From: Leuconostoc inhae
Lineage (GTDB): Bacteria > Bacillota > Bacilli > Lactobacillales > Lactobacillaceae
Reading direction: 5' to 3'
Assembly (NCBI RefSeq): GCF_019656015.1
Contig: NZ_BPKW01000012.1
Span: 1 to 49,136, forward strand
Length of the DNA stretch: 49,136 nt
This document shows, piece after piece, positions 30,921 through 48,979 of this stretch; position 1 is the stretch's first letter; each line of letters begins with the position of its first letter. The notes beneath the pieces are model-generated. The model was not told the DNA's origin and searched no databases. It worked only from the letters and a program-made list of their open reading frames with translations. The position numbers were made by a program, and so were the translations under genes.

Positions 30921-31513
30921 AAGAATATAATGCCGGCATCGTTTCAACTGCATTTTGGTATGATGAATTTCGACAATATTTACAATTAATTAACTCAGGA
31001 CTCACAGTAGATGAAATTCGGCAAAAGGCGATTGAGCAAAATGTATTCTTGGCATCAACACCACCACGGGCCAAACGCATGGTTGGCGCGTTGGCGAGAC
31101 GTGTTGAGTCATTGGATGCAGATGAAAAAGAGTTATTTGTTGCGTTAGACATTCCAAATCAAAAAGCACTTAACCTAGTTGCCATTATGAATACAAATAA
31201 ATTGATTAGAGAGTTTATGTATGAAATTTATCGAAACGAATTAATTTTGGGTGATAGTGTCATTGAACCACATGAATATGTGGCTTTCTTTAACAAAAAG
31301 CAATCTGAAAGTGCCGAAGTTGCGGCATGGACAGATAAAACAGTGCACCGTATGAAAGGAATAATACATACTTTTTTAATAGATGCGGGGTTAGTTGTTG
31401 AAAAAAATGGAAAAGACTATATTAAAAGACTACAGTTGAACCGTAGATTACGTCAATTATTTATTAATAAAGGGCAGCAGAGACTAGTTGATTCATTAAC
31501 GGGAGAAAATTGA
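30917..31513 (+). CDS. brxA: BREX protein BrxA (DUF1819)
   Basis: 198 residues. A small, mostly helical DUF1819 protein beginning KEYNAGIVSTAFWYDEFRQ and containing STPPRAKRMVGALARRVESL. In type 1 BREX systems BrxA is the first gene and is a DNA-binding, NusB-like accessory protein. AAGGAG lies 6 nt ahead of the ATG. Its stop overlaps the brxB start (TGATG). It begins the operon brxA-brxB-brxC-pglX. Confidence 0.92.
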   Translation: MKEYNAGIVSTAFWYDEFRQYLQLINSGLTVDEIRQKAIEQNVFLASTPPRAKRMVGALARRVESLDADEKELFVALDIPNQKALNLVAIMNTNKLIREFMYEIYRNELILGDSVIEPHEYVAFFNKKQSESAEVAAWTDKTVHRMKGIIHTFLIDAGLVVEKNGKDYIKRLQLNRRLRQLFINKGQQRLVDSLTGEN

Positions 31514-32094
31514 TGGATATTTTAAATGAACGCTTTGACAAGCTGAAATACAAATTAAATGATGAAAATTTTCGACATAATCGTGGACTAAGCAATGAAC
31601 TTGGTTATTATATTTTTCCTTATGATGCCAAAAGGGAAGAGTTGAAGGTCCGGGAATATGTAAAAGAGTTAGTGAGTAAGTATTCGACTTCACAAGATGG
31701 GTTTGAGATACGTGAATTCAATTTATATCAAATTGTGATGAACATTGTTGACGAAGAAGAATTTCAAGAAGGACTTGAATCAATTGAAGAAGAATATGGT
31801 ATAGGTGGTGTTATTTCTCAAATAGCCGAAAGTCTTGGATTGGATGAGGATGATAACGAAATTGTGAATTATATTGATCGTAACACTACAAAACATAATG
31901 AAGTAGTATTTTTAACAGGAGTTGGTCAAGTATTTCCATTGTTACGTTCCCATAAGATACTGAATGTCCTACAACAAAAGTTAGACAAGGTACCGTTGAT
32001 TATGTTTTTTCCTGGATCATATAATGGACGGTCACTAGATATCTTCAATGTTGTCCATGATGACAACTATTATCGTGCTTTTAAATTAGATTAG
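31513..32094 (+). CDS. brxB: BREX protein BrxB (DUF1788)
   Basis: 193 residues from ATG 31513, overlapping the brxA stop by one base, with GGGAGA upstream. DUF1788 pattern: IREFNLYQIVMNIVDEEEF, VVFLTGVGQVFPLLRSHKIL and PLIMFFPGSYNGRSLDIFN. BrxB is required for type 1 BREX defence, and its exact action is not established. The frame can also open at TTG 31510. One base separates it from the next open frame. Confidence 0.92.
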   Translation: MDILNERFDKLKYKLNDENFRHNRGLSNELGYYIFPYDAKREELKVREYVKELVSKYSTSQDGFEIREFNLYQIVMNIVDEEEFQEGLESIEEEYGIGGVISQIAESLGLDEDDNEIVNYIDRNTTKHNEVVFLTGVGQVFPLLRSHKILNVLQQKLDKVPLIMFFPGSYNGRSLDIFNVVHDDNYYRAFKLD

Positions 32095-32107
32095 ATTGGA
32101 TAGAAAA

Positions 32108-35100
32108 ATGGAAATTAAGCAGATATTTAACAAACAAATTGATCGTGATATTCAGGGTGTTATTAAAGCTGAACAAGTTGAAAATGATATCGTTCAACAG
32201 GATTTAGATGAATACGTCGTGACAAATGAGCTGCAAAAACATTTTAACAGTTTTTTTTCAGCTTATGCGCGGTCAATAGATAATAAGACTGATAAAATTG
32301 GTGTCTGGATTTCTGGTTTCTTTGGTTCAGGTAAGTCACATTTTTTAAAGATTATCTCTTATTTACTTGAAAACCGCGAGATTAATGGATATCATGCGAT
32401 TGATTTCTTTCATGACAAGATTCAGGATCCGATGGTATTAGCTGATATGCAGCGTGCTGCGAACATTAATACGGATGTGATGTTATTTAACATTGACTCA
32501 AAAGCCTCGTCAAATAGTAAATCTGATAAAGAAGCCATCATGCATGTATTTATGCAAGTATTTAATGACATGCGTGGGTACTATGGCCCTAATTTGCATG
32601 TTGCTGATTTGGAAGAAGATCTTGACAAAGAGGGCAAACTTGAGGCGTTTAAAGTTGCCTACCAGAAAGCCGATTCAAAAAATGAACCATGGGAAAAAGG
32701 TCGTCGATCAGTAGTTCTAAAGTCAAAAGCAGTTAGATCTGCATTGATTGAAGTTGGTAAGTTTGATTCTGAAAACTTGGCGGATGAATGGATTAAGTCG
32801 ACTAGGGCTGAATATTCGTTAAGTATTGAAGACTTTGCAAATCGTATCAATGAGTATCTTAATTCAAAAGAAAGAAATCATCACATTGCTTTTCTTGCTG
32901 ATGAGATGGGCCAATATATTGGTGACTCACGCGACCGCATGTTAAATCTCCAAACAGTTGCGGAAGATCTCGGGCGGTTAACGGATGGTCGTGCATGGGT
33001 AATTGTTACGGCTCAAGAAGAAATTGATAGCCTAGCTAAAGCTGACATGATGCATATGGCTGATTTTTCTAAAATTCAAGGTAGGTTCGACACGCGTATT
33101 TCTATGTCATCTGCAAACGTAGATGAAGTTATTAAGAGAAGGTTGCTCGAGAAAAAACCGGAAGTGGCAACCAACCTAACAGCCATTTATGCTTCGGAAG
33201 GAACATCAATTGATAATATGCTTCACTTCAATGATGATGCTGAACGAAAAGTTTACAAGAATGCTGATACATTTAATGAAGTATACCCATTTGTCCCATA
33301 CCAATTTAATTTAGTAGCAGATGTGCTACGTGCTATTCGTGATAATAGCATCAACGGAAAGCACCAATCTGAGGGTGAGCGTTCAATGCTTGCGATGTAC
33401 CAAGATGCTGCTCGAATGATTGAACAAGAGGAAGTTGGCAAGCTAGTATCATTTGATATGTTTTATGATCCAGTAGATCAGTTCTTAGACCATATGTACG
33501 CCAGCGTCATTGTTAAAGCGTCCCAAAATGAGCACATTAATCCTAATCATGAGGATAATACTTTTAATGTGCGTGTTTTGAAAACCTTGTTTTTGGTTAA
33601 ATATGTAAAAAACTTCAAGACAAACGTAGAAAATATTGTTAGTTTGATGATCGGCAATATTCGTACTGAACGTCTGACATTAGAAAAAGAAATTAAAAAA
33701 GCTCTAGGCATTCTGAAAACAGAAAATTTCATTCAAAAAAATTTAGATACCTATGAGTTTTTGACAGATGATGAGCAAGATGTCAATCGAGAAATCAATA
33801 AAAAATATGTTGATCCACAAGAAATACAAGCAGAAATTGGTACCCGAATTTTTGGATCAATTATTCCTGTTCGTCATGCCTATAATTTGCCACAGCTGGG
33901 GAAGGCACACAATAATCGATATGTATTTGGTTTTGTGAATAAAGTTGATGACCGTATCATTGGACGTAGCTTACAAACCGAAATGGATATTCAAATTGTA
34001 ACTAAATTCAATGACATTAATGGTATTGAAGAAAATCTGCGCATGGAGAGCACTGGAAACAGTATTATTGTTGATTTACCAACTCAAACAACATTTACTG
34101 AAGACTTACGTCGCGGTAAACAAATTGAAATGTTTATAAATGAAGCACATGCACAAAAGTCAGCTAGAAGTATTGAAACAATTATTATTGCTAAACAAGC
34201 GGAAAAAGAAGCAATTTATGACGATATTAATTTGAAGATTGAACGAGCACTGAATGAAGCCACAATTTATATGAATGGTAAACCAGTGGAAAATACTAAA
34301 GCTGATTTCGAAACACGAATTGGTCAAGCAATGGATGATTTGATCAAACGTGTTTACGGTAAGTTAGAGCATATCACTGCTGCAAAAGGCCCGAATGATT
34401 TGGCCAAAGCCTTGCGTAAAGAAAAACCTGTCCTTGAACTAGATGTTGAAGACACAGAAAATGAATTGGCGCTAGATGATTTGAAGACGTATATTCAGTT
34501 AGCTGGGCAAGTTTCATTAAGGAACGTCAAAGATAAGTTTGCACTAGCACCTTATGGATTCATTGATGATGATATTAATTGGTTGATTGGTAAGCTGTTC
34601 ATGGATGGCAAACTGACAGTATCTATTAATGGCGAAATAATGAGCTCTGTTACGATAAATGATAGACTTGTGTTTGATTACATTACTAAAAAACAATATC
34701 AGGATAAGTTATTATTAATGGTCCGCGAGGCTGTGTCGGCTAGGTTAAAGGGTTCTGTTAACGAAGTAGCAGATAATTATTGGGGTCGTTCAATAAATGG
34801 TGAAGATGAAGAAATATATCAAACTTTCTCAAGGCTCGCAAACGAAAAAATTAATGACTGGAACAAATATCGTGCGTTTGGCACTGAGTATCCAGGATCA
34901 AATGTATTGAGTCATGCCATCAAAGCATTTTCAAGTATCACTAGTATTAAAGACATCAATGAGTTTTTCCAATACGTCGATCGAGAATTGGATAGTTTAT
35001 TGGATATTTATGAACAAGAGGGACTCCCAGATGTAGAATCCTTTTTTAACGGTAATAACGGCCAAAAGGCCATTTGGGATCGGTCTCTAAAGTTAACACG

Positions 35101-35746
35101 TGAATATGAAATTAATGCTGTTTATCTTCAAGGTGATCAAGAAATTGCAACCATCTATGAACAAATTAAAAGTTTGCGTAACAATATTAGACCCTTTAAT
35201 AATATTAAAAATCTCAAGCCTCTAAACGATCAATTGGACGAAAAGCTTAGTACGCGTTTAACAGAGGATCAGAACCAAGTTGTAAAAGAAATTGAAAGTT
35301 ATCGACTCAGTGGGTTGTCATATTTAGAAGAATCAGGTTTGATTGATGAACAAGTAAATAAATTTGAATTTCTACAGAAAGTTGATTCTGCAAAACAAGC
35401 TGTAATTGACGCTGGTAGTTTGAATAGTGTTCATGCGGAAGGGGAACGGGCTAAGATAGCCAAGCAAAACTTTGAAGATAGAATTGACGCGATAGCCCGA
35501 GCTGCTGTTGCGTCCAAAAAAGTAGTTGATATGACTAATGATGATCAACCTCAAAAAGTGGTGGTTGATCCAGTTTCAACAGTCAAAACGAAAATTCAAA
35601 AAAGACGTAATGCTAAGCAATTAGCGGGAATTGAGTCATCATGGACGATAAAATCAACTGATGATATTAATAATTATCTTGATAAGTTACGCGCGAGTTT
35701 AACTGCCGAACTTGAAGGAACTGATGTTGTTCACTTTGAGCTCTAA
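32108..35746 (+). CDS. brxC: BREX ATPase BrxC (PglY-like)
   Basis: 1212 residues from ATG 32108. The frame opens at TTG 32096, but EIKQIFNKQIDRDIQGVIK is the family N-terminus. Walker A GFFGSGKS at 70-77, followed by HFLKIISYLL; Walker B-like IAFLADEMGQYIG near 260. Long C-terminal helical part. BrxC is the large P-loop (DUF499-related) ATPase needed for both methylation and phage exclusion in type 1 BREX. Tightly packed between brxB and pglX. No disruption seen. Confidence 0.93.
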   Translation: MEIKQIFNKQIDRDIQGVIKAEQVENDIVQQDLDEYVVTNELQKHFNSFFSAYARSIDNKTDKIGVWISGFFGSGKSHFLKIISYLLENREINGYHAIDFFHDKIQDPMVLADMQRAANINTDVMLFNIDSKASSNSKSDKEAIMHVFMQVFNDMRGYYGPNLHVADLEEDLDKEGKLEAFKVAYQKADSKNEPWEKGRRSVVLKSKAVRSALIEVGKFDSENLADEWIKSTRAEYSLSIEDFANRINEYLNSKERNHHIAFLADEMGQYIGDSRDRMLNLQTVAEDLGRLTDGRAWVIVTAQEEIDSLAKADMMHMADFSKIQGRFDTRISMSSANVDEVIKRRLLEKKPEVATNLTAIYASEGTSIDNMLHFNDDAERKVYKNADTFNEVYPFVPYQFNLVADVLRAIRDNSINGKHQSEGERSMLAMYQDAARMIEQEEVGKLVSFDMFYDPVDQFLDHMYASVIVKASQNEHINPNHEDNTFNVRVLKTLFLVKYVKNFKTNVENIVSLMIGNIRTERLTLEKEIKKALGILKTENFIQKNLDTYEFLTDDEQDVNREINKKYVDPQEIQAEIGTRIFGSIIPVRHAYNLPQLGKAHNNRYVFGFVNKVDDRIIGRSLQTEMDIQIVTKFNDINGIEENLRMESTGNSIIVDLPTQTTFTEDLRRGKQIEMFINEAHAQKSARSIETIIIAKQAEKEAIYDDINLKIERALNEATIYMNGKPVENTKADFETRIGQAMDDLIKRVYGKLEHITAAKGPNDLAKALRKEKPVLELDVEDTENELALDDLKTYIQLAGQVSLRNVKDKFALAPYGFIDDDINWLIGKLFMDGKLTVSINGEIMSSVTINDRLVFDYITKKQYQDKLLLMVREAVSARLKGSVNEVADNYWGRSINGEDEEIYQTFSRLANEKINDWNKYRAFGTEYPGSNVLSHAIKAFSSITSIKDINEFFQYVDRELDSLLDIYEQEGLPDVESFFNGNNGQKAIWDRSLKLTREYEINAVYLQGDQEIATIYEQIKSLRNNIRPFNNIKNLKPLNDQLDEKLSTRLTEDQNQVVKEIESYRLSGLSYLEESGLIDEQVNKFEFLQKVDSAKQAVIDAGSLNSVHAEGERAKIAKQNFEDRIDAIARAAVASKKVVDMTNDDQPQKVVVDPVSTVKTKIQKRRNAKQLAGIESSWTIKSTDDINNYLDKLRASLTAELEGTDVVHFEL

Positions 35747-35764: not shown

Positions 35765-38700
35765 GTGGATAAGACAAAAATTAAAAATTTTGCAATTGAT
35801 GCTAGACGTCAGTTGATTGAAGAAATCACACTTAAGGCACGTTTGATTGGCATCAGAAAAGATGGCATTCAAGAGCCAACCAACGAAACAAATCAAATCC
35901 AATTTTTTGGTGAGTATAGTATTAGCGGGGATGATATTCAACGCCGGCAAAAATTGGTGGCAGAGCTTAAGAAACGTAGTACGGGTAAAAAGTTAGAAGA
36001 AGTGTTACCTGTGTTTATTGAAGAGATCGCCTACACATGGTTTAATCGTTTAATTGCCATTCGATTTATGGAAGTTAATCGTTATTTACCAAGCCGTATA
36101 CGTGTTTTGTCTTCTGAAACACCTGGTCAAAATCAGCCTGACATTATTACTGAAGCGTTTAACTCTGATTTGAAATTTAATGCTACTGAAACAGAGCAAA
36201 TAAAATTCGCTCTTCTTAATCAAACAGTCGACGTGATGAATGACTTGTACAAAATGATTTTTATTAAGCAAGCCAATAAATTAAACGACGTCTTGCCACA
36301 ACTATTTGAAAAAATTGCTGATTATTCTGAATTATTATTCACACCTAATTATACGGATGTTAATGGTGTGATTCACAAACTAGTTAATGATATTGATGAA
36401 GCTGATTTTGACGTCAATAAATCTGGTCAAGTTGAAATTATTGGCTGGTTATATCAGTATTACAATGAAGAGCCTAAAGCCATCGCTTTCAAAAAGTCTA
36501 AATACACGGAATCAGATATTCCAGCTGTTACTCAATTATTCACACCGGATTGGATTGTAAAATACCTGGTAGAAAACTCTCTAGGTCGATTCTGGATTGA
36601 TCATTTGCGAACTGCTGGAGATAGTCGTTCGGAAAAAGAGATTTCAGAAACATTCAACTGGTTTTACTACATGCCCGCTACTGAGCAAAGTACTAATATA
36701 ACTATTCAAATTGCTGACGAAGACATTTCAAAATCGGGAATTACAATTGAAAATATTAAGTTCATTGATCCTGCAATGGGGTCTGGTCACATACTAGTCT
36801 ATGCCTACGATGTGTTCATGCAAATTTATGAATCATTAGGATATTCACTGGTTGACGCTGCAAAGTTAATCGTTCAAAAAAATATATATGGGCTGGACAT
36901 CGACACTCGAGCTTTTCAGTTAACCTATTTTGCAATAATGATGAAGTTGCGAAAAGATGACCGCCGTGCATTAACTCGTGATATAAAACCAAACGTGTTT
37001 GATGTGCCAGAAAGCTCAACTATTGAAATCGACGTACTTGCAACATTAATTGACAAAACAGAATCAACGAACAAAGCACAGTTACGCAAAGATTTAGATA
37101 ATTTAATCAATGCCTTCAAATATGGGAATGAATATGGATCGTTAATCGATTTTGATAAAACATTGAACTGGAATGATCTTCAGCTGTTAACTAACCCCAA
37201 TCTTGCTCAAGGACAATCAACACTCGAAACAATTAATTTACCTTTATATCAGAAAAACTTAGCTGACCTTATTAAAGTAGGAATGTTACTCTTTCAAACA
37301 TACGAAATCGGTGTTATGAATCCACCGTACATGGGTTCGGGTAAGATGGATACGATTCTCGGAAAGTATGTTAAAACTAAATTTCCTCATTCAAAGTCAG
37401 ATTTATTTGCAGTCTTCATTGAACGATTAGGTAGCATGATAGCTAAACATGGTTACTATGCTATGATTACTCAGCACTCATGGATGTTTCTATCAAGTTT
37501 CGAGCAATTACGCGCAATGTTGACCAAACACACATTAATTAACCTCGCACATCTTGGAACCCGTGCGTTTGAGGAAATCGGTGGTGAAGTGGTTCAAACA
37601 GTTGCTTTCGTTATGCGAAAATCTTCTTTAAGCGAATATGTTGGAACATATGAACGGTTAGTTAATTTTGATTCGCAGCAAAAGAAGGAAATTGGGTTTA
37701 CTGAATCAGTTAAAAATTCTAATGTAGATTATCTTTATCGAACTAACCAAGCGAATTTTAAAAAGATTCCTGGTAATCCAATTGCGTATTGGGCGTCTTC
37801 AAAATTGCTGAAATCATTTAATGACAACATATTATTGCAAAATATTGGTGATTCTCGTAATGGCTTGCAACCCAAAGTAACCAGTCGTTTTGTAAGACAA
37901 TGGTATGAAGTAGAATACTTGAATATTAACTTTAAAATTGAGTCTATTACGCAGACAAATAATTCTACTGAAAAATGGTATCCATATAATAAAGGCGGTG
38001 CCAAACGAAAGTGGTATGGAAATTATGATTATGTCGTAAATTGGAAGTTCAATGGATCAGAAATTCGTAGCATTAAACGAAATGGAAAACCATACGCTGT
38101 CATCCCCAGTCAAAAATACTATTTTAAACCCTCATTAACATGGCCAAAAATTACATCAGGAACATTTTCTGCTAGATATCGAGTGAAAGGAAGTATCCCT
38201 GCTGATGCTGGAAACTCTACATATTTCAAAAATTTGTTTGATTTGAAATACGTGCTTGGTGTGGTCAATACTAAAGTCGGCGATTATATTTTGAAAATGC
38301 TAAATCCCACTCTTAATTTACAAACCAGAGAATTTGCCTCATTGCCAATTATAGAACATGTAAATAAAAATGCAGTTGCTGAAACTGTTAATGAAAATAT
38401 TAAAATTACTAAAACTGACTGGGATTCCTTCGAAACTTCATGGGATTTTACCCAACATCCACTCCTTTCAAAAATCGATGAACATAATCGAAATTGGACA
38501 GTAGAAGCTGTATACGAATCATGGGCTGATGAAGCGCAAACGCGATTTGATCAACTGAAAGCAAATGAAGAAGAGTTAAATCGAATTTTTATTGATTTAT
38601 ATGGGTTGCAAGATGAGCTCACCCCAGAGGTAGAGGATAAGGACGTTTCGGTACGTCGTGCCGATCAGAATCGTGATATTAAGTCACTATTATCTTACTT

Positions 38701-39409
38701 TATTGGTTTGGTGTTTGGTCGATATTCATTAGATGTCAAAGGTTTAGTTTTTGCTGGTGGTGAATTTGACAAGGCAAAGTATCAAACGTTCATTCCTAAT
38801 ACCGATGATGTTGTGATGTTAACTGATGCTGATTATTTTGGTGATGAGCGTGATATCATGTATCGCTTTAAAGAATTTTTAGCAACTACATTTGGTGAAG
38901 GTAACTTAATTCAAAATCTTAATTTTATTGCTGATGTTTTGGGTGGAAAAGGTAAGCCCGAAGAAGTAATTCGAAATTATTTCTTTAAAGATTTTTTCAA
39001 GGATCACGTACAAATCTACAAAAAGCGTCCAATTTATTGGCAATTAGAATCTGGAAAATTAGGTGGATTCAAGGCACTAATTTATTTGCATCGTTATGAT
39101 GAAAATACAATGGCAATGATTCGTACCAACTACCTCAATGAGTTACAAAACGCGTATGAAGCACGCCTGAGCACATTAACTAATTTGATTGATAATGCTA
39201 CTGACACTAAATCTAAGAATGGGTACGAAAAGCAACGTGTCAAGTTAACCAATCAGCTAGATGAGTTAGTTATGTTTGAAGATAAAATTGCTTATTTGGC
39301 TAGTAAACATGTTGTCCTTGATCTTGATGATGGTGTTGTGGAAAATTATAAAAAAGTTCAATCTGATGAAGATGGCAACTTGCTGAATGTGTTTAGTAAG
39401 TTAAAGTAA
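35765..39409 (+). CDS. pglX: BREX adenine-specific methyltransferase PglX (expressed copy)
   Basis: 1214 residues from GTG 35765, with AGGGA upstream. SAM-binding motif DPAMGSGH at 335-342, catalytic NPPY at 519-522. PglX methylates the BREX site (N6-adenine) and marks self DNA. From the repeats it divides into: constant N-terminus (1-147), arm A (148-234), methyltransferase core (235-654), arm B (655-678), probable target-recognition part (679-884), arm C (885-910) and C-terminus (911-1214). The three arms recur inverted in the silent copy at 41987-44262, so the present sequence is one of several possible forms. Confidence 0.93.
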   Translation: MDKTKIKNFAIDARRQLIEEITLKARLIGIRKDGIQEPTNETNQIQFFGEYSISGDDIQRRQKLVAELKKRSTGKKLEEVLPVFIEEIAYTWFNRLIAIRFMEVNRYLPSRIRVLSSETPGQNQPDIITEAFNSDLKFNATETEQIKFALLNQTVDVMNDLYKMIFIKQANKLNDVLPQLFEKIADYSELLFTPNYTDVNGVIHKLVNDIDEADFDVNKSGQVEIIGWLYQYYNEEPKAIAFKKSKYTESDIPAVTQLFTPDWIVKYLVENSLGRFWIDHLRTAGDSRSEKEISETFNWFYYMPATEQSTNITIQIADEDISKSGITIENIKFIDPAMGSGHILVYAYDVFMQIYESLGYSLVDAAKLIVQKNIYGLDIDTRAFQLTYFAIMMKLRKDDRRALTRDIKPNVFDVPESSTIEIDVLATLIDKTESTNKAQLRKDLDNLINAFKYGNEYGSLIDFDKTLNWNDLQLLTNPNLAQGQSTLETINLPLYQKNLADLIKVGMLLFQTYEIGVMNPPYMGSGKMDTILGKYVKTKFPHSKSDLFAVFIERLGSMIAKHGYYAMITQHSWMFLSSFEQLRAMLTKHTLINLAHLGTRAFEEIGGEVVQTVAFVMRKSSLSEYVGTYERLVNFDSQQKKEIGFTESVKNSNVDYLYRTNQANFKKIPGNPIAYWASSKLLKSFNDNILLQNIGDSRNGLQPKVTSRFVRQWYEVEYLNINFKIESITQTNNSTEKWYPYNKGGAKRKWYGNYDYVVNWKFNGSEIRSIKRNGKPYAVIPSQKYYFKPSLTWPKITSGTFSARYRVKGSIPADAGNSTYFKNLFDLKYVLGVVNTKVGDYILKMLNPTLNLQTREFASLPIIEHVNKNAVAETVNENIKITKTDWDSFETSWDFTQHPLLSKIDEHNRNWTVEAVYESWADEAQTRFDQLKANEEELNRIFIDLYGLQDELTPEVEDKDVSVRRADQNRDIKSLLSYFIGLVFGRYSLDVKGLVFAGGEFDKAKYQTFIPNTDDVVMLTDADYFGDERDIMYRFKEFLATTFGEGNLIQNLNFIADVLGGKGKPEEVIRNYFFKDFFKDHVQIYKKRPIYWQLESGKLGGFKALIYLHRYDENTMAMIRTNYLNELQNAYEARLSTLTNLIDNATDTKSKNGYEKQRVKLTNQLDELVMFEDKIAYLASKHVVLDLDDGVVENYKKVQSDEDGNLLNVFSKLK
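36207..36466 (+). repeat. Inverted repeat A, arm in active pglX (260 bp)
   Basis: By direct comparison it matches the reverse complement of 44003-44262 with 8 mismatches (about 97%). The first 79 bp (36207-36285) are identical. Confidence 0.92.
37729..37797 (+). repeat. Inverted repeat B, arm in active pglX (69 bp)
   Basis: Matches the reverse complement of 42774-42842 with 6 mismatches. Contains a 26-bp identical core coding for TNQANF and neighbours, at the boundary between the methyltransferase core and the variable recognition part. Confidence 0.88.
38417..38493 (+). repeat. Inverted repeat C, arm in active pglX (77 bp)
   Basis: Identical over all 77 bp to the reverse complement of 42069-42145. 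Encodes DWDSFETSWDFTQHPLLSK and onward to EHNR. Confidence 0.92.
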
Positions 39410-39421
39410 GCGGTTTAAATA

Positions 39422-39461
39422 GAACATACGTTCGTATTTGTTGGAGTTATCATGGTATAAT
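39422..39461 (+). promoter_or_regulatory. Promoter and possible operator of the abi gene
   Basis: Extended -10 TGGTATAAT (39453-39461). About 12 bp upstream is an imperfect palindrome centred on TACGTTCGTA (39422-39441) that could be an operator. GAGGAA precedes ATG 39488. Confidence 0.45.
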
Positions 39462-39487
39462 AAATTATCAATCAGATGAGGAATACT

Positions 39488-40564
39488 ATGACAAATGTAT
39501 TATCACACTCCTTAAGAGTGAAACCAGCTTTAACTCTTTCTGAACAGGTAAATAAGCTGAAACAAAAGTACCGCCTAGAAATACCAGATGAAGACAAAGC
39601 AAAGAAAGAACTTTTGAACAAAAATTATTTTGATTTAATTAATGGTTTGGAAGAACTGTTCCCGTCTGGAGTGGCAAAGAACGGCAAGCCTAAATCATTT
39701 GAATCGTATTCGTTTGACGATTTTTTGCTGTTATACGATTTTAATATATAGTTTAGAACGTATATGTTACGTATTATTGCCGATTTTGAAATTAAATTGA
39801 AATCGGTGTCTTCGTATTACTTTACACAAGCTTTCGCTTCAACTCAGTATGGTACTTTAGCGTACCTAGATGAGAATAATTATGTAAAACGAACAGAGTA
39901 TCTTGATTGCCAGTTAGCTGATCATTTTGAAAATTTTTTCTTTCTGGATAATACACGGAATGTAAGCCCACAGTTTCAAGCTTACGTAAAACCAGAGCAA
40001 CCATTAACAGATATTCTTTACAGAAATAAGAATTTGCGCAAAGAGATGATTGCAAATTCTCTGTTAGTTCCTTATCAAGTACCACCGTTATGGGTTGTTG
40101 TGAAGATTCTTGATTTTGGAAAATTGTATCATTTTGTAGCGTATATGAAGGATAACGTTATTGCTAAAATACGCAAGGAGATGGGGTTTGAAAATTATAC
40201 AACCTATGAATTTTTAAGTGTATTACAAATGGTGTTGGCGCTACGTAATACACTAGCGCATTTTCAAATGGTTAATAAGTTTTCTTTTCAAAAACCAATT
40301 GCGCAAAACTTATTGTCGAAACTTCGAGCACATGACAGTCGACTAGTTACAGATTTGACGCAATTACCATTAGAAGTATCTATCTTTGATATTACTCGGC
40401 TACTAAATAAGTCTGTCGAAGTATCAAGCCTTAATCAAGCATTTCAGGTAGTAGAAATCTCACCATACTTACCTAAACAAGAGAAGAATGTGTTAGTTCG
40501 TAATTTGCTTACTTCTATGGGAAATGGGGAGCCTTCTGATTGGAAGTTCTTGACAAGTAATTAA
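39488..40564 (+). pseudogene. Abi_2-family (AbiD/AbiF-like) abortive infection gene split by an in-frame TAG
   Basis: One continuous frame of ~358 codons broken only by TAG at 39749-39751, between LLLYDFNI and FRTYMLRIIADFEIKLKS. The upstream part has the Abi_2 start (KPALTLSEQVNKLKQKYRLEI, KKELLNKNYFDLINGLEELF). The downstream part has the middle and end, including LRNTLAHFQ, an Rx4H-like motif seen in this HEPN-related family. Such proteins cause cell arrest on phage infection. It is either a nonsense mutant, a read-through gene or two polypeptides (the second could start at ATG 39764). It lies inside the invertible BREX segment in the pglX orientation. Confidence 0.75.
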
Positions 40565-40770
40565 AGAATTAGTATTATTATTATATAGACTATGCAGAGA
40601 TGCTAATGTGGGTCAACATTGATAGATGAGTGGTTGAAGGCAATGACAATAAGACCTGAATACTACAACTTTAGAAGATGCCACTATCGAGGCTGCACTT
40701 ATGCAGTAGCGTCATTAGATAAATAAGCGCTGATGACACATTTGGGCCGCAAGACTCAAATGCTACATAA
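40565..40770. other. Non-coding gap between abi and recombinase, possible decayed coding
   Basis: No intact gene. One frame reads EWLKAMTIRPEYYNFRR and an overlapping frame LEDATIEAALMQ before stops, which could be the frameshifted remains of a gene I cannot identify. Small hairpins (CTGCA-CTTA-TGCAG near 40693) are present. Confidence 0.3.
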
Positions 40771-40774
40771 ATCA

Positions 40775-40808
40775 AAAACGAAATCCGTTGGATTTCGTTT
40801 TTTTTATT
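40775..40808. terminator. Terminator between abi and recombinase genes
   Basis: AAAACGAAATCC (40775-40786), GTT loop, GGATTTCGTTTT (40790-40801), then a long T-run. The A-rich left side allows weak use from the other strand. Confidence 0.88.
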
Positions 40809-40884
40809 ATCTTAGTTTAAGGGAATGCGGCAGTTATGAGATTCATGTTTTGAATACTAAATACTTGAATCATTTTACTAAATG

Positions 40885-40902
40885 GTGCCAAATATTGTGC
40901 CA
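40885..40902 (+). repeat. GTGCCA repeat pair downstream of the recombinase gene
   Basis: GTGCCA at 40885-40890 and 40897-40902, 12 bp apart. Opposite in orientation to the pair at 42019-42035. Candidate arm-type binding sites for the recombinase. Confidence 0.4.
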
Positions 40903-40908
40903 AAAATA

Positions 40909-41994
40909 TTAACTATCTATTAGACCAATAATTTTAATGATTTGGCTTTGATCTTGTGCTTCCAATTCCTTAATAATGTGTAAATAGGTGGACTGGGTAG
41001 TAGTGATATTACTATGTCCTAGCCGCTTTGAAACTGAAAGAACACTGACGCCCTTGTACAATAGGACTGATGCGTGAGTGTGGCGCAAAGCATGAAAAGT
41101 TATTTCTGACAAACTGAGTTCTTTTAATTTTGCGTGTAAAACTTGATTAATTTGTGCACTAACTAGTATACGATGGTTGACTAGGAAAATAGGATGAAAA
41201 TTATCAACATTGTTAAAAGATAAAAACTTCTTGAGCAAATTTATAGTATGCTTGTCAATTGTAACTATTCTGACAGATGATGCGGTTTTAGTCTTTTTAA
41301 ATCCGGTTCTATATTTATAATCCCAAGTCTTAGTAATTGAAATGGTTTGGCTGGAAAAGTCAATTGCGTCACGTGTTATACCGGCTACTTCAGCGTAGCG
41401 CATGCCAGTCACTGCGGCAATGTAAATCATCATTTCACTAGGGTCTAAATAATTAATGTTGCTAATTAGTTTACGCCATTCGTTATAGCTCAACGCTTTC
41501 TTATTTTCGATAGAGGGTTTACCAGTTATTACAGCTTTACGGGTGGGATCAGTTGGAATAATGTTTTCATCCAATGCATCGAGCAAACAAGCACGAATGT
41601 ATTTATGTAGCCCGCTAACAGTACGCTTTGCATGCGTTTTAGCAAAAATATTTAGTTTTTCTTGGTACATTGTTTTGGTGATATCAATTAATTTTGTATC
41701 ACCAAATAGCTTGCTGATATGTTTTGCGGTACTGACATACTTCATGTAGGTAATATCTGAGACAATATCTTCTTTATAAAGTTTTATCCAATTTTGATAG
41801 TATTTCAGTAGAGATTGTTGTCCGCGCAAGTATGTTGTGAGTTTGGGATTGTTGACTTGAACATATGATGCAGCACTGATAGCTTCTGATTTGATTCGGA
41901 ATCCAGACTTTCTAAGCTTTCGGTAATTTCCATTGGCATCTTTGAACGAAATTTCAAATTGCCACACATTTCCACGTTTACGATAACTAACCAT
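40909..41994 (-). CDS. Tyrosine recombinase of the pglX inversion cassette
   Basis: 361 residues from ATG 41994, which has AGGAGGAG upstream; the frame extends to 42084 but those codons overlap the pglX fragment. It has an N-terminal arm-binding-like domain (MVSYRKRGNVWQFEISFKDA), a SAM-like core-binding domain (~60-150) and a catalytic domain with R199 (TGMRYAEV), H301 and R304 (HALRHTHAS), H327 (LGHSN) and Y337 (STYLHI). All five key residues are present, so it should be active. It resembles phage/ICE integrases, but no other mobile-element gene is nearby. Its place between two inverted pglX copies makes it the likely invertase. Confidence 0.9.
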   Translation of the reverse strand: MVSYRKRGNVWQFEISFKDANGNYRKLRKSGFRIKSEAISAASYVQVNNPKLTTYLRGQQSLLKYYQNWIKLYKEDIVSDITYMKYVSTAKHISKLFGDTKLIDITKTMYQEKLNIFAKTHAKRTVSGLHKYIRACLLDALDENIIPTDPTRKAVITGKPSIENKKALSYNEWRKLISNINYLDPSEMMIYIAAVTGMRYAEVAGITRDAIDFSSQTISITKTWDYKYRTGFKKTKTASSVRIVTIDKHTINLLKKFLSFNNVDNFHPIFLVNHRILVSAQINQVLHAKLKELSLSEITFHALRHTHASVLLYKGVSVLSVSKRLGHSNITTTQSTYLHIIKELEAQDQSQIIKIIGLIDS

Positions 41995-42018
41995 ATTTAT
42001 TAATTCTCCTCCTGAATT

Positions 42019-42035
42019 TGGCACTTTTTTGGCAC
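42019..42035 (+). repeat. TGGCAC repeat pair upstream of the recombinase gene
   Basis: TGGCAC at 42019-42024 and 42030-42035, 11 bp apart, between the recombinase start and arm C. Mirrors the GTGCCA pair at 40885-40902. Confidence 0.4.
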
Positions 42036-42068
42036 ACATCCGAAATTGTATCAATTTTTGGCGGAGAT

Positions 42069-42145
42069 TTTCGATTATGTTCATCGATTTTTGAAAGGAG
42101 TGGATGTTGGGTAAAATCCCATGAAGTTTCGAAGGAATCCCAGTC
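42069..42145 (-). repeat. Inverted repeat C, arm in silent pglX (77 bp)
   Basis: Exact reverse complement of 38417-38493. Lies 75 bp upstream of the recombinase start codon. Confidence 0.92.
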
Positions 42146-42773
42146 TTGTTTCACAGTTTCAATATTACTTAATACATTTTTATCTACATTCAGGCTATCA
42201 ATAGCAGAAACAAAAGGTAGTTGCCTTATTGTGCCGGCGCCAGTATTGATTGTTGGATTAATTAACTTTACAGAATAATTACCAACTTTTGAATTTAAAA
42301 ATCCCAGTAATTTATTATAATTAGAAATTTCGTTTGGGAACATTCCATTAGCACCTGAATCAAAAATGAATCCTGTACCATAGTACCTAGCGCTGTACAT
42401 TCCACTTGTTACACCAGTCCACGTAATTCCTGGCCTAAAATAATATGATTCATTTGAAATTTTCCAACCAAGATTATCTCCGAGTTGTGGATAAATTTTT
42501 TTAGTATTTTCTTTAATTTCAAATCCGTTGTTGAACCAGTTGACAACATACTCATTGTTTCCATACCATTTTTTAAAGTTTCCGCCTTTATTATATGGCA
42601 CCCATTTTTTTGCCTGTGTTATTTCAATGTTAGCGTCGGAAAGAGTTGAGTTATTAATCCGGACTTCATACCAAAATCGTAAGAATTTTGCATTATTACC
42701 TGTTCGCATACCGATTCCAGCAAACGCAACATCTGAAATGATCCTGTCTTTAAAAGTTTCTAAGTATTTATCA

Positions 42774-42842
42774 GATGCCCAATACGCAATCGGACTACCG
42801 GGAATCTTCTTAAAATTCGCTTGGTTAGTTCGATATAGATAA
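42774..42842 (-). repeat. Inverted repeat B, arm in silent pglX (69 bp)
   Basis: Reverse complement of 37729-37797 with 6 mismatches. Confidence 0.88.
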
Positions 42843-44002
42843 CCGGCAGCAGGATTCTCAATAATTTCCAGTACCTTCTGATCTTGAACTGCCATCCCCC
42901 CAGTGAATTCAGATAATTTAACATATGAGCCCAGTTCATGATTGGGGCTATTTTGAATGACAAAAGTATTGATTGGCACAGTCGCCTCTTCAAAAGCTGA
43001 GTATTCCATTTGAATTAAACTTGAGATTTGCTTGTTATCAACAATATAAGTCCGTAAGGCTTCGTAAGTTTTAATAAACATCCAAACGAATGGTGTCATG
43101 TAGGCAGCATAGCCATCTGGTTTAAGCATCTGTAAATTGTTGAAAATAAATACTGAAAACAGGTCGCCCTTATAGGCTTTAAAGTGATTATTGATATATT
43201 TCTTTAAACTTGCTTCAAACTTGTTCATATACGGAGGATTGGTGACAACCACTTCATACTTTGTCTGAAGTACGTTAATAATGCTTAACATGTTGATAAT
43301 GCTGTCTTTTGAAGCAGATATTCCAAAAATGTCTAATTCATCAGCTTCAATCTTGGTAATTTCAGACTTTAATAGGTCAATATCATATTGCTTTTCAAAC
43401 TGCATTATAGAACCGAGTTCAGTAGCATTTTCAAAAAGTGTCACCAACGATTTAATTTCAGAGGCAATATTTTCGGAAAGTTGTTTGTAAATGTCATCTG
43501 CTATATTTGTTACATCACGGAAAACATAAACCCTTGGGTTAGTACTACTTGTCAATATGCGGCGATTATATTCGCGAGCCTTCATCATTAATGCAAAGTA
43601 TGCGAGTTGATAAGCTCGCTTATCAATTTCAAGTCCCACAATATTATTTTCGAGAATTAACAATGCTGCTTCGCGTGACGAGTATCCGCGCTCTTCATAC
43701 ATTTTTATCAGTACATCAAAAGCATAAACGAGAATATGACCTGAGCCCATGGCATTATCCAGTATTTTAATATTTTCAAGCTTTAGGTCGTCGGTACGAC
43801 GTTTTATGTCAGCAGGTAACAGATATTTAAGATCTTTGTCAATCTTGCTATTGGCTTCGTGTTCAATCCAATACTTTCCTAACGAGTTATCAACCATGTA
43901 TCTCACAACCCAATCAGTTGTAAAAAGTTGAGTGGCTGCAGGAATGTCAGCTCTCTTAACAGCGCCACCAGTGATATTGACAACGCGCTCATGTGGTTCA
44001 GT

Positions 44003-44262
44003 ATTGTAATACTGATATAACCAGCCAATAATTTCAACTTGACCAGATTTGTTGACGTCAAAATCAGCTTTATCAATATCATTAACTAGTTTGTGAATGA
44101 CACCATTCACATCCGTATAATTAGGTGTGAACAATAGTTCAGAATAATCAGCAATTTTTTCAAATAGTTGCGGCAAGACGTCATTTAATTTATTGGCTTG
44201 CTTAATAAAAATCATTTTGTACAAGTCATTCATCACGTCGACTGTTTGATTAAGAAGAGCGA
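44003..44262 (-). repeat. Inverted repeat A, arm in silent pglX (260 bp)
   Basis: Reverse complement of 36207-36466 with 8 mismatches. Its outer edge marks the end of pglX homology, next to the pglZ promoter region. Confidence 0.92.
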
Positions 44263-44344: not shown

Positions 44345-46876
44345 ATGGTAGCAGTCAGTTTGCAACAAATAATCGATAAGCTAAATAGTGAGTTCGCTGT
44401 AGGCGAACGGCGCTTGATTTTTTGGTATGATGCGGCGCTTGATTTTTTTGATGATATTGAAGAAATAGAAAGCAAATTAAAGAATGCTAAGTTATTGATG
44501 ATGGGGCCTAATGAACAATTTAAAACAAAAACCATTATTGAGCGACAACAACCCGATGCCAGTTTCCTGATTTATTCACCTGCTCCAAAACCGGCAGCTA
44601 AATTAAACTTCTTGATGGATGAACTTGAATATTCACAAGAATTTACTGCTGACCGTACGGCGTTTATATCATTAGAATTAGGTATTCCAGCAGCTCTTCG
44701 TTTAATAGTGGAATCTCATCAGGCTTTCTTTGGCAATAAAGAGAGAATGCAAAAGCTGGCTAGTCTTAATCTTGAATACCATGACGAACATGACTTGATT
44801 TTGGGCATGATGGCAGTGTTAACTAATCAAAAAACCGCTGATATTGAAACGATAACGCGGGCAATTATGGATGGTTCTTGTGATGAAGATAATAAAAGTT
44901 TGGCAGTTTTTAACAAATATGACTTGTTAGAAAAGTATTGGGAAGAAGTCAATCTTCACTTTGGTTATCAAAGCGAAACGCCCAATCTAATGAAATTTGT
45001 TAGCGCTCTGGTTTTGAATTTTACTTTTTTTGAATTATCAATTGAAATTCCTAGTAGTCACAAGATATATCGGGTTAGTCGACAATCGACAGTAGCTGTG
45101 TTTATGGCTAATTATATGAATAGCAAAGAATATACGGAACGATACGATACACTTGCCACTGCAGTTTATGATTACGTGCTGGCAGATCAATTATTTGGAA
45201 AAATGAGTATTGATACTATCGCGAAGTCATCATCCTTTCGCCAATTTGATGAGCGAGTTTTGCAATGGTGTATTGAAAGATTGCTTGTGGGTGATGTCAC
45301 AGCGAAGGTTAATGACTATTCTATTGAACAGTTAACAGATGAACGTGTGAAAATGCATTTTGGGAATGTTTATTCGGAAGAATATCACGTTTTAAAACAT
45401 GCTGCCGCTTTAATGCAAAATCATAATGTTTCATATGGTGACATTGCAACCATGATTACAGCGTACAAAGAGACAGGGTTCAATATAGATCGACATTATC
45501 GTAAATTTTATCAACATTTGCATGCAGCGAGAAATCAAGATCAGTATGATAAGCTTCGTCAACTTATCGAAGAAACGTACGTAAAATATCTGGCTAATGC
45601 GATTACTCAATGGAATAAAGAATTTATATTTACTGACATTAATCAATCAAAATCAAAATTACAGCGAAATTTTTACCAGGACTACATTGCTAATCAGACT
45701 GCCAATACAGTAGTGATAATTTCCGATGCATTTCGTTATGAAGCGGCTTTGGAACTAGCTGATTTGTTGAAATTTGATACGAAAAATATTGTTAATATAG
45801 AATCAGCTTTAACCGGATTACCATCTATAACGCCGTTTGGTATGGCACAATTATTGCCACATAAGTCACTGGCATATGATGGCGATAAAAAAAGTATCAT
45901 TGTGGATAATCAATTTGATACCAATAATACGGAAAATCGTGCTAAGATTCTCAAAAATTGGAATGAAAAGAGTGTTGCTATTCAATTTGATGTGATCAAA
46001 AAAATGACACAAGCAGAATTACGTGATTTTAGATCTAATAAAGAGATAATTTATATTTACCACAATCAAATTGATGCAGTAGGTGATACGCAAAAAACAG
46101 AAGATCAAGTTTTCGAAGCAACCAGGAAGGCCATTGATGACATTCGTGATTTAATCAAACGTTTAGCTGGCAGTGCAAATATTGGAAATTTCTTCGTTAC
46201 AGCCGATCACGGATATATTTATCGAGAAGATAAAGTAGATGTTTCGGACAAGATTGATCTGGAATTAGCCAAAGGTGATAAACCAAGTCAAAGATATTTA
46301 ATCAGTGATCACTCGTATGATGAACCAGGCGTTACAGCCACAAAATTGGGTGATGTTCTAGGCAATTCTGATGACAGATTTGTCAATTATCCAAAAAGCA
46401 TTAATGTTTTTCAGGGTGCTGGTGGAGGTAGGAATTACGTTCATGGTGGATCATCTCTTCAAGAGATGATGATACCAGTAATACACGTTAATGTGAAACG
46501 TGGAAAGTCTACAAACAAACCGGCTGATCTGCGCGTCGTGACTCCGTCAACTCGAATAACCAATCTATTGACAAATATTGAGTTTTTACAAGACGAGCCA
46601 ATAAGTGATGTCGTAAAACCTAATGAATATAAAGTTTATTTCGTCAGTGAAAATAATGAAATTATATCAAATGAAGTCATTATTATGGCTAATTTAAAAG
46701 ACAATAATGTCAATAATCGTCGTTTTCGCAACTCATTTACATTTAAAGAGCAAAAATATAAACGGACGGACCAATTTTATATGTTAATAATTGATAGAAC
46801 TACTGGTGTCGAGGTACAGCGTAATCCATATATATTAGACATTGCACTGGCTGGTGGATTTGGATTTGACATTTAG
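44345..46876 (+). CDS. pglZ: BREX alkaline-phosphatase-fold protein PglZ (BrxZ)
   Basis: 843 residues. The N-terminus has IFWYDAALDFFDDIEEIE. The central to C-terminal PglZ domain of the alkaline-phosphatase superfamily carries metal-ligand motifs ISDAFRYEAALEL (D461) and VTADHGYIYRED (D621, H622), plus YVHGGSSLQEMMIPVI. PglZ is the signature gene of BREX systems. In type 1 systems it works with PglX and BrxB/C in the complex, and its phosphatase/nuclease-type activity is not fully defined. Starts 82 bp beyond the inversion cassette. Intact. Confidence 0.95.
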   Translation: MVAVSLQQIIDKLNSEFAVGERRLIFWYDAALDFFDDIEEIESKLKNAKLLMMGPNEQFKTKTIIERQQPDASFLIYSPAPKPAAKLNFLMDELEYSQEFTADRTAFISLELGIPAALRLIVESHQAFFGNKERMQKLASLNLEYHDEHDLILGMMAVLTNQKTADIETITRAIMDGSCDEDNKSLAVFNKYDLLEKYWEEVNLHFGYQSETPNLMKFVSALVLNFTFFELSIEIPSSHKIYRVSRQSTVAVFMANYMNSKEYTERYDTLATAVYDYVLADQLFGKMSIDTIAKSSSFRQFDERVLQWCIERLLVGDVTAKVNDYSIEQLTDERVKMHFGNVYSEEYHVLKHAAALMQNHNVSYGDIATMITAYKETGFNIDRHYRKFYQHLHAARNQDQYDKLRQLIEETYVKYLANAITQWNKEFIFTDINQSKSKLQRNFYQDYIANQTANTVVIISDAFRYEAALELADLLKFDTKNIVNIESALTGLPSITPFGMAQLLPHKSLAYDGDKKSIIVDNQFDTNNTENRAKILKNWNEKSVAIQFDVIKKMTQAELRDFRSNKEIIYIYHNQIDAVGDTQKTEDQVFEATRKAIDDIRDLIKRLAGSANIGNFFVTADHGYIYREDKVDVSDKIDLELAKGDKPSQRYLISDHSYDEPGVTATKLGDVLGNSDDRFVNYPKSINVFQGAGGGRNYVHGGSSLQEMMIPVIHVNVKRGKSTNKPADLRVVTPSTRITNLLTNIEFLQDEPISDVVKPNEYKVYFVSENNEIISNEVIIMANLKDNNVNNRRFRNSFTFKEQKYKRTDQFYMLIIDRTTGVEVQRNPYILDIALAGGFGFDI

Positions 46877-46894: not shown

Positions 46895-48979
46895 ATGACA
46901 AAAGAACTACTTACAGATGAAACAACGATTCTTGAAAAATTACAAACAAATTTTCCGGGTAAGTTTGTACGCAAGGACCTCACAAAGCTTATCAAAGAAG
47001 GGGCTAATGTGCCAACTTATGTTTTGGAGTACTTATTAGGTATGTATGCCAATTCAACTGATGAAATAGAAATTCAAAAAGGTATTCAAACTGTTAAGAA
47101 CATTTTAGCGCGTAATTATGTGCGACCCGATGAGGCAACAAAGGTTATTTCAAATTTGCGTGAAAAAGGTTCCTATACTATCATCGACCGACTAACCGTT
47201 TCGTTGAACTACCGTGTTGATCAATACGAAGTTGAGTTTTCGAATCTTGGACTAAGTGGGGTACCAGTTGACTCAGTTTACCCATCTAAATATGAAAGAC
47301 TGCTTGGTGGAGGCATTTGGGCGATCGTTCAAATGGAATATATACACGAGGATGATCTGCGAGGAGATTACGATCAGAAAGAAAGTAAAGCCAATGATGG
47401 CATGCCGTTTGTTATAAAAAATATTACACCAATTCAGATGCCAAGTATCAATTTAGATGAATTAAAGCTTGGACGTGCTAATTTTACAAAAAATGAGTGG
47501 ATTGATGTTGTACTCAGAACAACTGGGATTGAGCCCAGTAAATTGTCTCATCGTGAAAAATTACTTCACCTGTTACGTTTGGTGCCATTGGTGGAGAATA
47601 ACTATAATTTAGTGGAGCTTGGTCCTCGTGGCACTGGGAAATCTCACGTTTATAAGGAAATTTCACCCAATTCTATTCTAGTTTCTGGTGGTCAAACAAC
47701 TGTTGCTAATTTATTTTATAATATGTCTTCTCGTTCGATAGGATTGGTAGGTCTTTGGGATGTTGTGGCATTTGATGAAGTTGCTGGTATTAACTTCAAA
47801 GACAAGGATGGCATTCAAATCATGAAAGATTACATGGCATCTGGTTCATTTGCGCGCGGTAAAGAACAAAAGGCTGCCAGTGCATCAATGGTTTTTGAAG
47901 GTAACATTAATCAAAGTGTAGATGTTGTGATGCGCACATCTCATTTATTTGATCCATTTCCGGACGTCATGGCGAATGACTCAGCATCTTTGGATCGTAT
48001 GCATGCGTATTTGCCAGGATGGGAAATGCCAAAATATCATGCTGATCATTTTACTAATGGGTATGGCTTTATTACAGATTATTTTTCAGAAGTGATGAGA
48101 GAACTACGGAAAATATCATATGGAGATGCAATTAGTAAATTTTTCAAATTGGGACATCAACTAGCTAAACGTGATTCAGACGGTGTGGTCAAAACGGTTT
48201 CTGGTATGCTAAAATTGATATTTCCAAACGAGCAGTATACTCGTGACGATGTTGAAGAAATCTTGGTTTTTGCGCTTGAAATGCGTCGTCGCGTTAAAGA
48301 GCAGTTAAAGAAAATCGGTGGCATGGAGTTTTTTGATGTGAATTTCAGCTACATAGATAACGAAACCTTTGAAGAGCGATTTGTGCCTGTTCCTGAGCAA
48401 GGTGGGGCCACGCTAATTCCCGAAGGGAGCGGTATGCCTGGGCATATTTATTCTGTGGCACATGATGTTGGCGGGCGCCTGAGTTTATATAAGACTGAAA
48501 CGCAAATGAGTGGTGGAACGGGGAAATATAATGTCACCGGTGTGTCAGGTAAAGATGCTTCAGAAGCTACCAAAACTGCATATAATTATTTGAAAGCTAA
48601 TGCCAGTACAATTAGCAACACTATCAGTCTTAACAATCATGACTATGTATTAAACGTGCAGAATTTAAATGGTTATGATATGACAAGAGATCTGGCCCTG
48701 TCTACTCTGATTGCCTTAGCGTCGATTTCATTAAGTAAACCAACTATTGATAGTTTGGTAGTACTGGGAACTATAACAATCGGTGGTACTTTGCAACGAC
48801 TCGATGATCTTGCCGATACTCTGCAAGTTGCTCATGATAGTGGCGCCAAAAAAGTCTTATTACCAATGACATCTGCTGCAGATTTGGGGAATGTTCCACC
48901 TGAATTAATGAGTACATTTAGTATTCTTTTTTATAGTTCAGTTGAAGATGCCGTTTTTAAGGCATTAGGAGTAAATTGA
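46895..48979 (+). CDS. brxL: BREX protein BrxL (Lon-like AAA+ ATPase)
   Basis: 694 residues. N-terminal domain (~1-200), AAA+ domain with Walker A GPRGTGKS at 243-250 and a Walker B-like WDVVAFDEVAG, and a C-terminal Lon-protease-like domain (~570-694). In that domain the usual GPSAG serine motif is not visible (the region reads GYDMTRDLALSTLIALAS), while the following IGGTLQRLDD and GAKKVLLP resemble Lon. So proteolysis is doubtful, and a DNA-binding ring role, as known for BrxL, is more likely. BrxL is the effector-side type 1 gene, and its presence defines this locus as type 1. Starts 18 bp after pglZ. Confidence 0.93.
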   Translation: MTKELLTDETTILEKLQTNFPGKFVRKDLTKLIKEGANVPTYVLEYLLGMYANSTDEIEIQKGIQTVKNILARNYVRPDEATKVISNLREKGSYTIIDRLTVSLNYRVDQYEVEFSNLGLSGVPVDSVYPSKYERLLGGGIWAIVQMEYIHEDDLRGDYDQKESKANDGMPFVIKNITPIQMPSINLDELKLGRANFTKNEWIDVVLRTTGIEPSKLSHREKLLHLLRLVPLVENNYNLVELGPRGTGKSHVYKEISPNSILVSGGQTTVANLFYNMSSRSIGLVGLWDVVAFDEVAGINFKDKDGIQIMKDYMASGSFARGKEQKAASASMVFEGNINQSVDVVMRTSHLFDPFPDVMANDSASLDRMHAYLPGWEMPKYHADHFTNGYGFITDYFSEVMRELRKISYGDAISKFFKLGHQLAKRDSDGVVKTVSGMLKLIFPNEQYTRDDVEEILVFALEMRRRVKEQLKKIGGMEFFDVNFSYIDNETFEERFVPVPEQGGATLIPEGSGMPGHIYSVAHDVGGRLSLYKTETQMSGGTGKYNVTGVSGKDASEATKTAYNYLKANASTISNTISLNNHDYVLNVQNLNGYDMTRDLALSTLIALASISLSKPTIDSLVVLGTITIGGTLQRLDDLADTLQVAHDSGAKKVLLPMTSAADLGNVPPELMSTFSILFYSSVEDAVFKALGVN

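Follow-up and report, generated by a model that had tools for sequence, protein, structure and literature searches.

The BREX (bacteriophage exclusion) locus of Leuconostoc inhae raises the question of why a complete pglX gene, encoding the methyltransferase of the system, faces a second, silent pglX fragment on the opposite strand, and whether modules could be exchanged between the two. The locus lies on contig NZ_BPKW01000012.1 (assembly GCF_019656015.1), whose 49,136 nucleotides are here called the window; the window is the entire contig, from a genome of 1.96 Mb. An earlier note, made from the letters of the window, had proposed that the two pglX copies share three inverted blocks, A, B and C, through which PglX could be shuffled. 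Our comparison with related loci indicates that the arrangement is probably a three-site inversion switch for BREX specificity, worked by the tyrosine recombinase encoded next to the silent copy.

Three inverted block pairs and the domains of PglX

All three block pairs were recovered, with 252 of 260 positions identical for A, including 79 bp without a mismatch along the outer edge, 63 of 70 for B, including an exact core of 26 bp, and 77 of 77 for C. The blocks and the lengths of A and C are thus as the earlier note gave them; B, put there at 69 bp, measured 70 bp. A separate repeat search returned the same three pairs together with weaker ones. The strong protein divergence noted between the blocks is also confirmed: identity between the 1214-aa active PglX and the 749-aa silent frame is 47% overall, with long identical runs confined to the blocks.

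On PglX, block A covers residues 148-234, B residues 655-678 and C residues 885-910. The accessible parts of two structural reports divide Escherichia coli BrxX into an N-terminal domain (NTD, residues 1-210), a methyltransferase domain (MTD, 211-650), a target recognition domain (TRD, 651-837) and a C-terminal domain (CTD, 838-1205) (PMC11842806), and place the TRD of Salmonella PglX at residues 662-849, with spacer helices after it (PMC11341690). By these limits and an alignment to PDB 8c45, A falls at the end of the NTD, B at the hinge between MTD and TRD, and C directly past the TRD. The stretch from A to B therefore corresponds to a catalytic module and that from B to C to a recognition module.

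Blocks of this kind might be nothing other than conserved protein. We compared synonymous codons of the active and silent copies at codons for the same residue, locus by locus, in 30 BREX loci (analysed loci are labelled L plus a number). This set was drawn from 43 rows by dropping copies or near-copies of retained loci (L089, L126, L138, L144), a locus from the genome of L143 with a broken frame (L142), one on a short contig (L141), three loci with a TRD-only cassette (L120, L123, L124) and four with a split CTD (L129, L135, L136, L137). Within loci, synonymous identity reached 0.88-0.94 in A (residues 194-229), 0.81-0.85 in B (650-685) and 0.65-0.95 in C (878-913). Of the 34 bins across the catalytic stretch from A to B (242-649), 28 lay at 0.30-0.50 and the extremes were 0.28 and 0.65; the TRD at residues 686-793 was intermediate (0.52-0.77). 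Between loci, identity in the blocks was raised too (A 0.49-0.60, B 0.51-0.69, C 0.45-0.74), but block codons match far more within than between loci, and we rejected mere protein conservation as the explanation. A conserved methyltransferase stretch taken as contrast (residues 338-349) gave 0.37 within and 0.40 between loci.

Repeats between the two copies occur at the same three places in other loci. Among 37 of them, A was listed in 34 (around residues 190-237), B in 34 (around 655-677) and C in 18 (around 880-912). The earlier impression of something richer than a simple flip holds for the three-block shuffling; the layout itself is not peculiar to this genome.

Shared arms and pair-specific spacers

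A motif, ATCG-N8-AAKCRAA, is common to blocks A, B and C. A codon-level listing brought out nucleotide-fixed cores in the blocks, each laid out as an arm, an 8-base spacer and a second arm, with ATCG or TYG as the anchor. Across loci, B sites mostly read ATCG-AACTAACC-AARCGAA and C sites ATCG-CTGAGCAT-AATCGAA or variants; the canonical A sites of relatives read TYG-TTCACTCC-MARCTAT or variants, and that of the window TCG-CTCTTCTT-AATCAAA. The pattern TCG-N8-AAKCRAA occurs exactly six times in the window, once per block copy, against an expectation of 0.68 and a maximum of three in 100 shuffles, a post hoc count, as the pattern was composed after inspecting the window sites. The outer coordinates of the repeat arrangement, 36207 and 44262, coincide with the outer ends of two motif copies.

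A stricter test used arm models trained without the window, ignoring the spacer, on sites chosen by codon column. With models from 29 active C sites or 58 B sites of other loci, five window sites headed the ranking of 98,232 positions, namely both C sites, both B sites and the silent A site; the active copy of A came 10th with the C-trained model and 23rd with the B-trained one. In leave-one-out runs on the other loci, models trained on C alone ranked B sites among their first five in 56 of 58 cases, and models trained on B alone did so for 21 of 29 active C sites. Two of the missed sites are explained, one by an arm that is flipped away (L134) and one by an anchor that the protein alignment misplaced (L002). 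Compared with the A site of relatives, the boundary of A in the window is shifted 128 bp upstream, and the new boundary has a motif copy; a model trained on canonical A sites did not find the window A site, because the site has moved.

The spacers follow a different rule from the arms. Positions 2-8 were the same in both copies of a locus in 28 of 29 comparisons for A, 30 of 30 for B and 29 of 30 for C. Between loci, the corresponding counts were 492 of 812, 452 of 870 and 122 of 870. The lone exception at C is the misplaced anchor of L002, both copies of which carry the same spacer. The spacer thus differs among blocks and species, yet matches between the two copies of one locus, and in the window the 8-base spacers are identical in all three block pairs. 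At C, within-locus agreement is 97-100% across spacer positions 2-8 and drops to 10-33% at several of the bases that come next, which remain with the flank. The B core occurs in the genome at its two places only, with up to three mismatches allowed, and a scan of viral_contigs returned no B core.

Arms flanking a short overlap that matches between partners, the pattern expected of tyrosine recombinase sites, are therefore present in the sequence, and the blocks resemble targets of a site-specific recombinase rather than mere stretches of homology. Taken together, the sites suggest a single recombinase that works with three different overlaps. General homologous recombination or gene conversion could in principle both keep the blocks alike and exchange them, leaving the recombinase a passenger or active at A only. 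Block A would suit such a process, since most of the 34 loci that list it have 91-100% identity across some 130-150 bp, as would the raised synonymous identity of the TRD region past B, which gene conversion would give. Such a process gives no reason, however, for arms common to three unrelated coding stretches, and C is unlisted as a repeat in 19 of the 37 loci (L060, L086 and L133 among them), which share its core alone; a switch of flanks at C nevertheless occurs in the clade of L133 (L133 versus L140). We regard homologous exchange as a very unlikely account.

Exchanged modules and a proposed inversion switch

Comparison of relatives uncovered past exchanges with breakpoints at the blocks. 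The silent cassette of L133 equals the active cassette of L140 (DNA identity 0.962 in the MTD and 0.994 in the TRD), with the NTD at 0.996 and the CTD at 0.953; judged by these identities, the relation is the product of an A plus C exchange, the combination predicted earlier to trade core and recognition modules together. L003 carries as its silent TRD the one that is active in L067 (0.956; the remaining TRD pairs stand at 0.39-0.50), and the catalytic parts are unmoved (0.932 between active and 0.909 between silent MTDs). With breaks at B and C, this is, on the aligned sequences, a recognition domain that moved alone by B-to-C exchange, so that B separates core from recognition part as had been foreseen. 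Two plasmids, L086 of L. plantarum K25 and L088 of L. brevis TMW 1.2111, have flanks 99% identical and reciprocal catalytic modules, the active one of each plasmid matching the silent one of its partner (98.1% over 1362 bp in one comparison, 91% over 1823 bp in the other); their active TRDs differ. Between L088 and L140, the MTD is nearly identical (0.997), the TRD is different, and identity resumes at the C core. Exchanged states thus occur between relatives when genomes are compared.

In the switch that we propose, the adjacent tyrosine recombinase would act on three inverted site pairs, with one member of each pair in the active pglX and one in the silent cassette that faces it. Every site would be bound through the common arms (ATCG ... 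AAKCRAA), and the pair-specific 8-base spacer, as the crossover region, would restrict exchange to A with A, B with B and C with C. Inversion at A would swap catalytic and recognition domains and flip the segment holding the CTD and the recombinase; inversion at B would swap the recognition domain and flip that segment; inversion at C would flip the segment only. Since the pairs are nested, three inversions would yield eight arrangements, from two catalytic modules, two recognition modules and two segment orientations. When the inversions were simulated on the window, all eight products were in frame, four of them full-length PglX proteins of 1214 (M1T1), 1217 (M1T2), 1183 (M2T2) and 1180 aa (M2T1), and four without the CTD of 936, 939, 905 and 902 aa. 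The earlier note had counted at least four forms, some truncated; the truncated forms have a counterpart in L134, and the count now stands at eight by simulation.

In L134, the N-terminal gene stops past the TRD; the recombinase comes next, in the same orientation, and the CTD is joined to the other cassette, with brxC and pglZ in their usual places. This truncated state, and the truncated protein that a lone C inversion yields in simulation, are what one would expect if the locus were mainly an on/off device in which nothing but the orientation of the C-terminal segment counts and shuffling of modules arises rarely, as a by-product of evolution. Active and silent TRDs, however, are more than 80% identical within only one of the 30 loci (L143, 0.872), and differing active TRDs stand behind near-identical catalytic parts, as in L088 and L140. 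Dissimilar TRD pairs and TRD changes behind the same MTD suggest selection for variety, and we consider a mere on/off role improbable.

The recombinase that would carry out the inversions comprises arm-binding, SAM-like and catalytic domains. Residues R229, K266, H331, R334, H357 and Y367, which we take to be its catalytic residues, are the same in all 36 recombinases aligned, that of the window included. The gene sits directly behind the silent cassette, with an 8-base overlap (41987-41994) between the cassette stop and the third ATG in the recombinase frame. Candidate starts, judged by position, could be listed for 27 of the 30 loci; in 12 of these 27, including the window, a recombinase ATG falls within a span from 8 bases ahead of the end of the cassette stop to 2 bases past it. 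It is further off in the Levilactobacillus loci listed (39-54 bases later) and in L139 (284 bases). In several other loci, the cassette stop and the recombinase ATG overlap as TAATG. An inversion at C would set the recombinase behind a truncated pglX, where its expression may be higher. With the recombinase ATG at the pglX stop, the truncated states would express the recombinase from the BREX promoter, so that they would be short-lived and the full-length states stable. The full scheme, in which there are three exclusive 8-base overlaps and eight BREX states, and the recombinase is transcribed from the BREX promoter in the truncated states alone, is offered tentatively, as a possibility about which we are more doubtful than confident.

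How the forms might differ in function can be gauged from work on other PglX proteins. As far as the available text of one report goes, the residues targeted to alter the PglX motif are found mostly in the TRD, plus a single MTD loop, and pglX phase variation is called common (PMC11341690); in the available part of another, C-terminal PglX variants separate restriction from methylation (PMC12707154). We infer that the full-length forms would differ in DNA motif, and that the truncated forms would be off or would methylate without restriction. This recombinase would be the catalyst and the spacer its overlap, and switching may be ongoing in culture.

Several observations weigh against an active three-site switch. 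The canonical A sites of relatives fit the arm model weakly, at ranks 5-613 of about 18,000-44,000 positions, and these ranks come from sites collected by a DNA pattern that fixes some arm and spacer bases. In the genome, ATCG-N8-AAKCRAA is found at 17 places, five of them block sites, and a reversed control pattern at nine; arms also occur elsewhere, so arms alone do not define a site. The sharing of a short C core alone in the 19 loci named above belongs here as well. The map of L134 would result equally from an A inversion or from an assembly error at its 131-bp A repeat, for which reason we do not claim it as proof of a C crossover on about 12 bp of identity. The truncated state appears in one of 30 loci (L134), where free switching predicts about half, and the exchanges between species could include horizontal transfer. 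Each genome presents one state, and close relatives share theirs: L088 and L089 are 100% identical over 19,777 bp, and L060 and L126 are 99.94% identical over 17,981 bp. These last points, and the AbiD-like gene inside the invertible segment, would also suit a fixed relic, a formerly active switch that no longer moves in this strain and has left its silent cassette behind. A relic fits poorly, however, with a silent frame that is open over 749 aa and retains the AMGSGH and NPPY motifs, with intact conserved recombinase residues, with a C pair without a single difference and with identical spacers at all three pairs, and we judge it rather unlikely, if less so than the two alternatives above.

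The locus, its relatives and known inversion systems

The window holds a complete type I BREX set in type I order at one locus (brxA, brxB, brxC, pglX, pglZ and brxL), brxC being assigned by position and similarity to relatives alone (Table 1). Systems of this type are further marked by a PglX that methylates a six-base motif and by the exclusion of phage lacking that methylation. Between pglX and pglZ lie the AbiD-like gene, the minus-strand recombinase and the opposing pglX fragment, which runs from block A to block C and is without the N-terminal part and the CTD. The AbiD-like gene, between pglX and the recombinase, consists of two same-frame open reading frames that match consecutive parts of the AbiD profile; it would invert together with the C-terminal segment, and the switch model does without it.

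Table 1. Features of the BREX locus in the window
Feature	Position	Strand	Evidence or remark
brxA	30917..31513	+	Pfam BrxA, E 2.3e-48
brxB	31510..32094	+	Pfam BrxB, E 1.9e-37
brxC	32096..35746	+	operon position; 33-37% identity to same-place open reading frames of relatives
active pglX, 1214 aa	35765..39409	+	PADLOC PglX, 1408 bits; PDB 8c45, E 6e-200
block A, active copy	36207..36466	+	motif copy TCG-CTCTTCTT-AATCAAA at 36207-36224
block B, active copy	37727..37796	+	motif ATCG-AACTAACC-AAGCGAA at 37737-37755, near MTD-TRD hinge
block C, active copy	38417..38493	+	motif ATCG-ATGAACAT-AATCGAA at 38474-38492, TRD end
AbiD-like gene	39476..40564	+	PADLOC AbiD, Pfam Abi_2
terminator-like hairpin, thirteen pairs	40774..40802	both	between AbiD-like gene and recombinase
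tyrosine recombinase, 391 aa	40909..42084	-	Pfam Phage_integrase, E 2.6e-20
silent pglX cassette, open frame 749 aa	41987..44262	-	blocks A to C
block C, silent copy	42069..42145	-	motif copy 42070-42088
block B, silent copy	42775..42844	-	motif copy 42816-42834
block A, silent copy	44003..44262	-	motif copy 44245-44263
pglZ	44345..46876	+	Pfam PglZ, E 1.8e-47
brxL	46895..48979	+	Pfam BrxL_ATPase, E 7.3e-141

The layout of a full-length pglX, an opposed partial pglX and a recombinase between them, as in L. rhamnosus, is found here and is common in Lactobacillaceae. In genome_contigs, 80 loci were kept of 95 encoding relatives of the silent fragment; 14 of the 80 carry PglX on both strands, all 14 with a recombinase, and the other 66 gave two recombinase matches, of which the first sits where a contig is cut off and the second is weak and distant. 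Among 397 genomes of the family, 73 had any match and 52 a PglX match better than 1e-50, at least 33 of the latter with opposing PglX matches on a single contig. A recombinase was present in 43 of 43 longer-locus rows with PglX on both strands, a set that includes some duplicates and many rows fetched for having opposing copies.

Invertible hsdS loci, such as the pneumococcal one with three repeats, combine a tyrosine recombinase, inverted repeats within the specificity gene and silent modules, and change recognition by inversion. The likeness to hsdS shufflons drawn in the earlier note stands for these three elements, as a likeness only; the varied gene is pglX and not hsdS, and a lone C inversion here would remove the CTD. 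Because pglX fuses methyltransferase and recognition in one protein, catalytic domains would be exchanged too, unlike in hsdS. In R64-type shufflons, one recombinase acts on several short sites with conserved arms and inverts segments to give alternative C-termini of a pilus tip protein. The window resembles them in all of these respects, whereas its three pairs have different spacers and are nested round a two-copy cassette, and the target is a defence enzyme.

Specificity in BREX systems is, to our knowledge, commonly regarded as either fixed or subject to on/off switching. Goldfarb 2015 gave the first description of pglX irregularities and reportedly noted pglX inversion in Lacticaseibacillus rhamnosus GG. 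That such inversion is known in lactobacilli, as the earlier note said, agrees with the accessible parts of two later reports. L. rhamnosus LRHMDP2 and LRHMDP3 have a PglX of 1198 aa, a partial PglX of 743 aa and a site-specific integrase between them, a layout said to be analogous to that of GG (PMC7513527), where two opposed pglX genes encode about 1184 and 740 aa, as computed from coordinates (PMC6256098). The likeness lies in the full-length and partial pglX with the integrase between; the parts available of both descriptions hold no mention of three site pairs, a common motif, independent module exchange or eight states. In L. paracasei Zhang, according to the text available, inactivation of pglX abolished N6-methyladenine and inactivation of a second methyltransferase gene did not, and the authors propose a regulatory role for the second gene (PMC10164179); the result would also fit a silent second copy. 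In the literature within reach of our search, part of it accessible in portions, and with Goldfarb 2015 and Hui 2019 outside that reach, we found no three-site pglX shuffling, shared arms, block-specific spacers or independent exchange. What is added here is the proposed mechanism, with its shared motif, block-specific spacers and independent module exchange; the kind itself is known. If the mechanism is true, one clone would hold several methylation motifs and hence several phage-exclusion specificities, and the arms with their 8-base spacer would provide a testable code for locating such systems and for building orthogonal inversion sites.

Two further layouts were seen among the relatives. 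In L129, L135, L136 and L137, PglX ends past the TRD (885-916 aa), CTD matches stand apart behind a recombinase 45-47% identical to that of the window, and one or two extra PglX-like cassettes are present; L129, L135 and L136 carry motif copies with the same arms and other spacers (e.g. TTTTGGGT and TTGTAGGG), and L137 has none comparable. L120, L123 and L124 are simpler, with a silent cassette that is a TRD alone and starts at the B site or no more than ten codons from it; in the B-site copy of L124 the left arm is degenerate.

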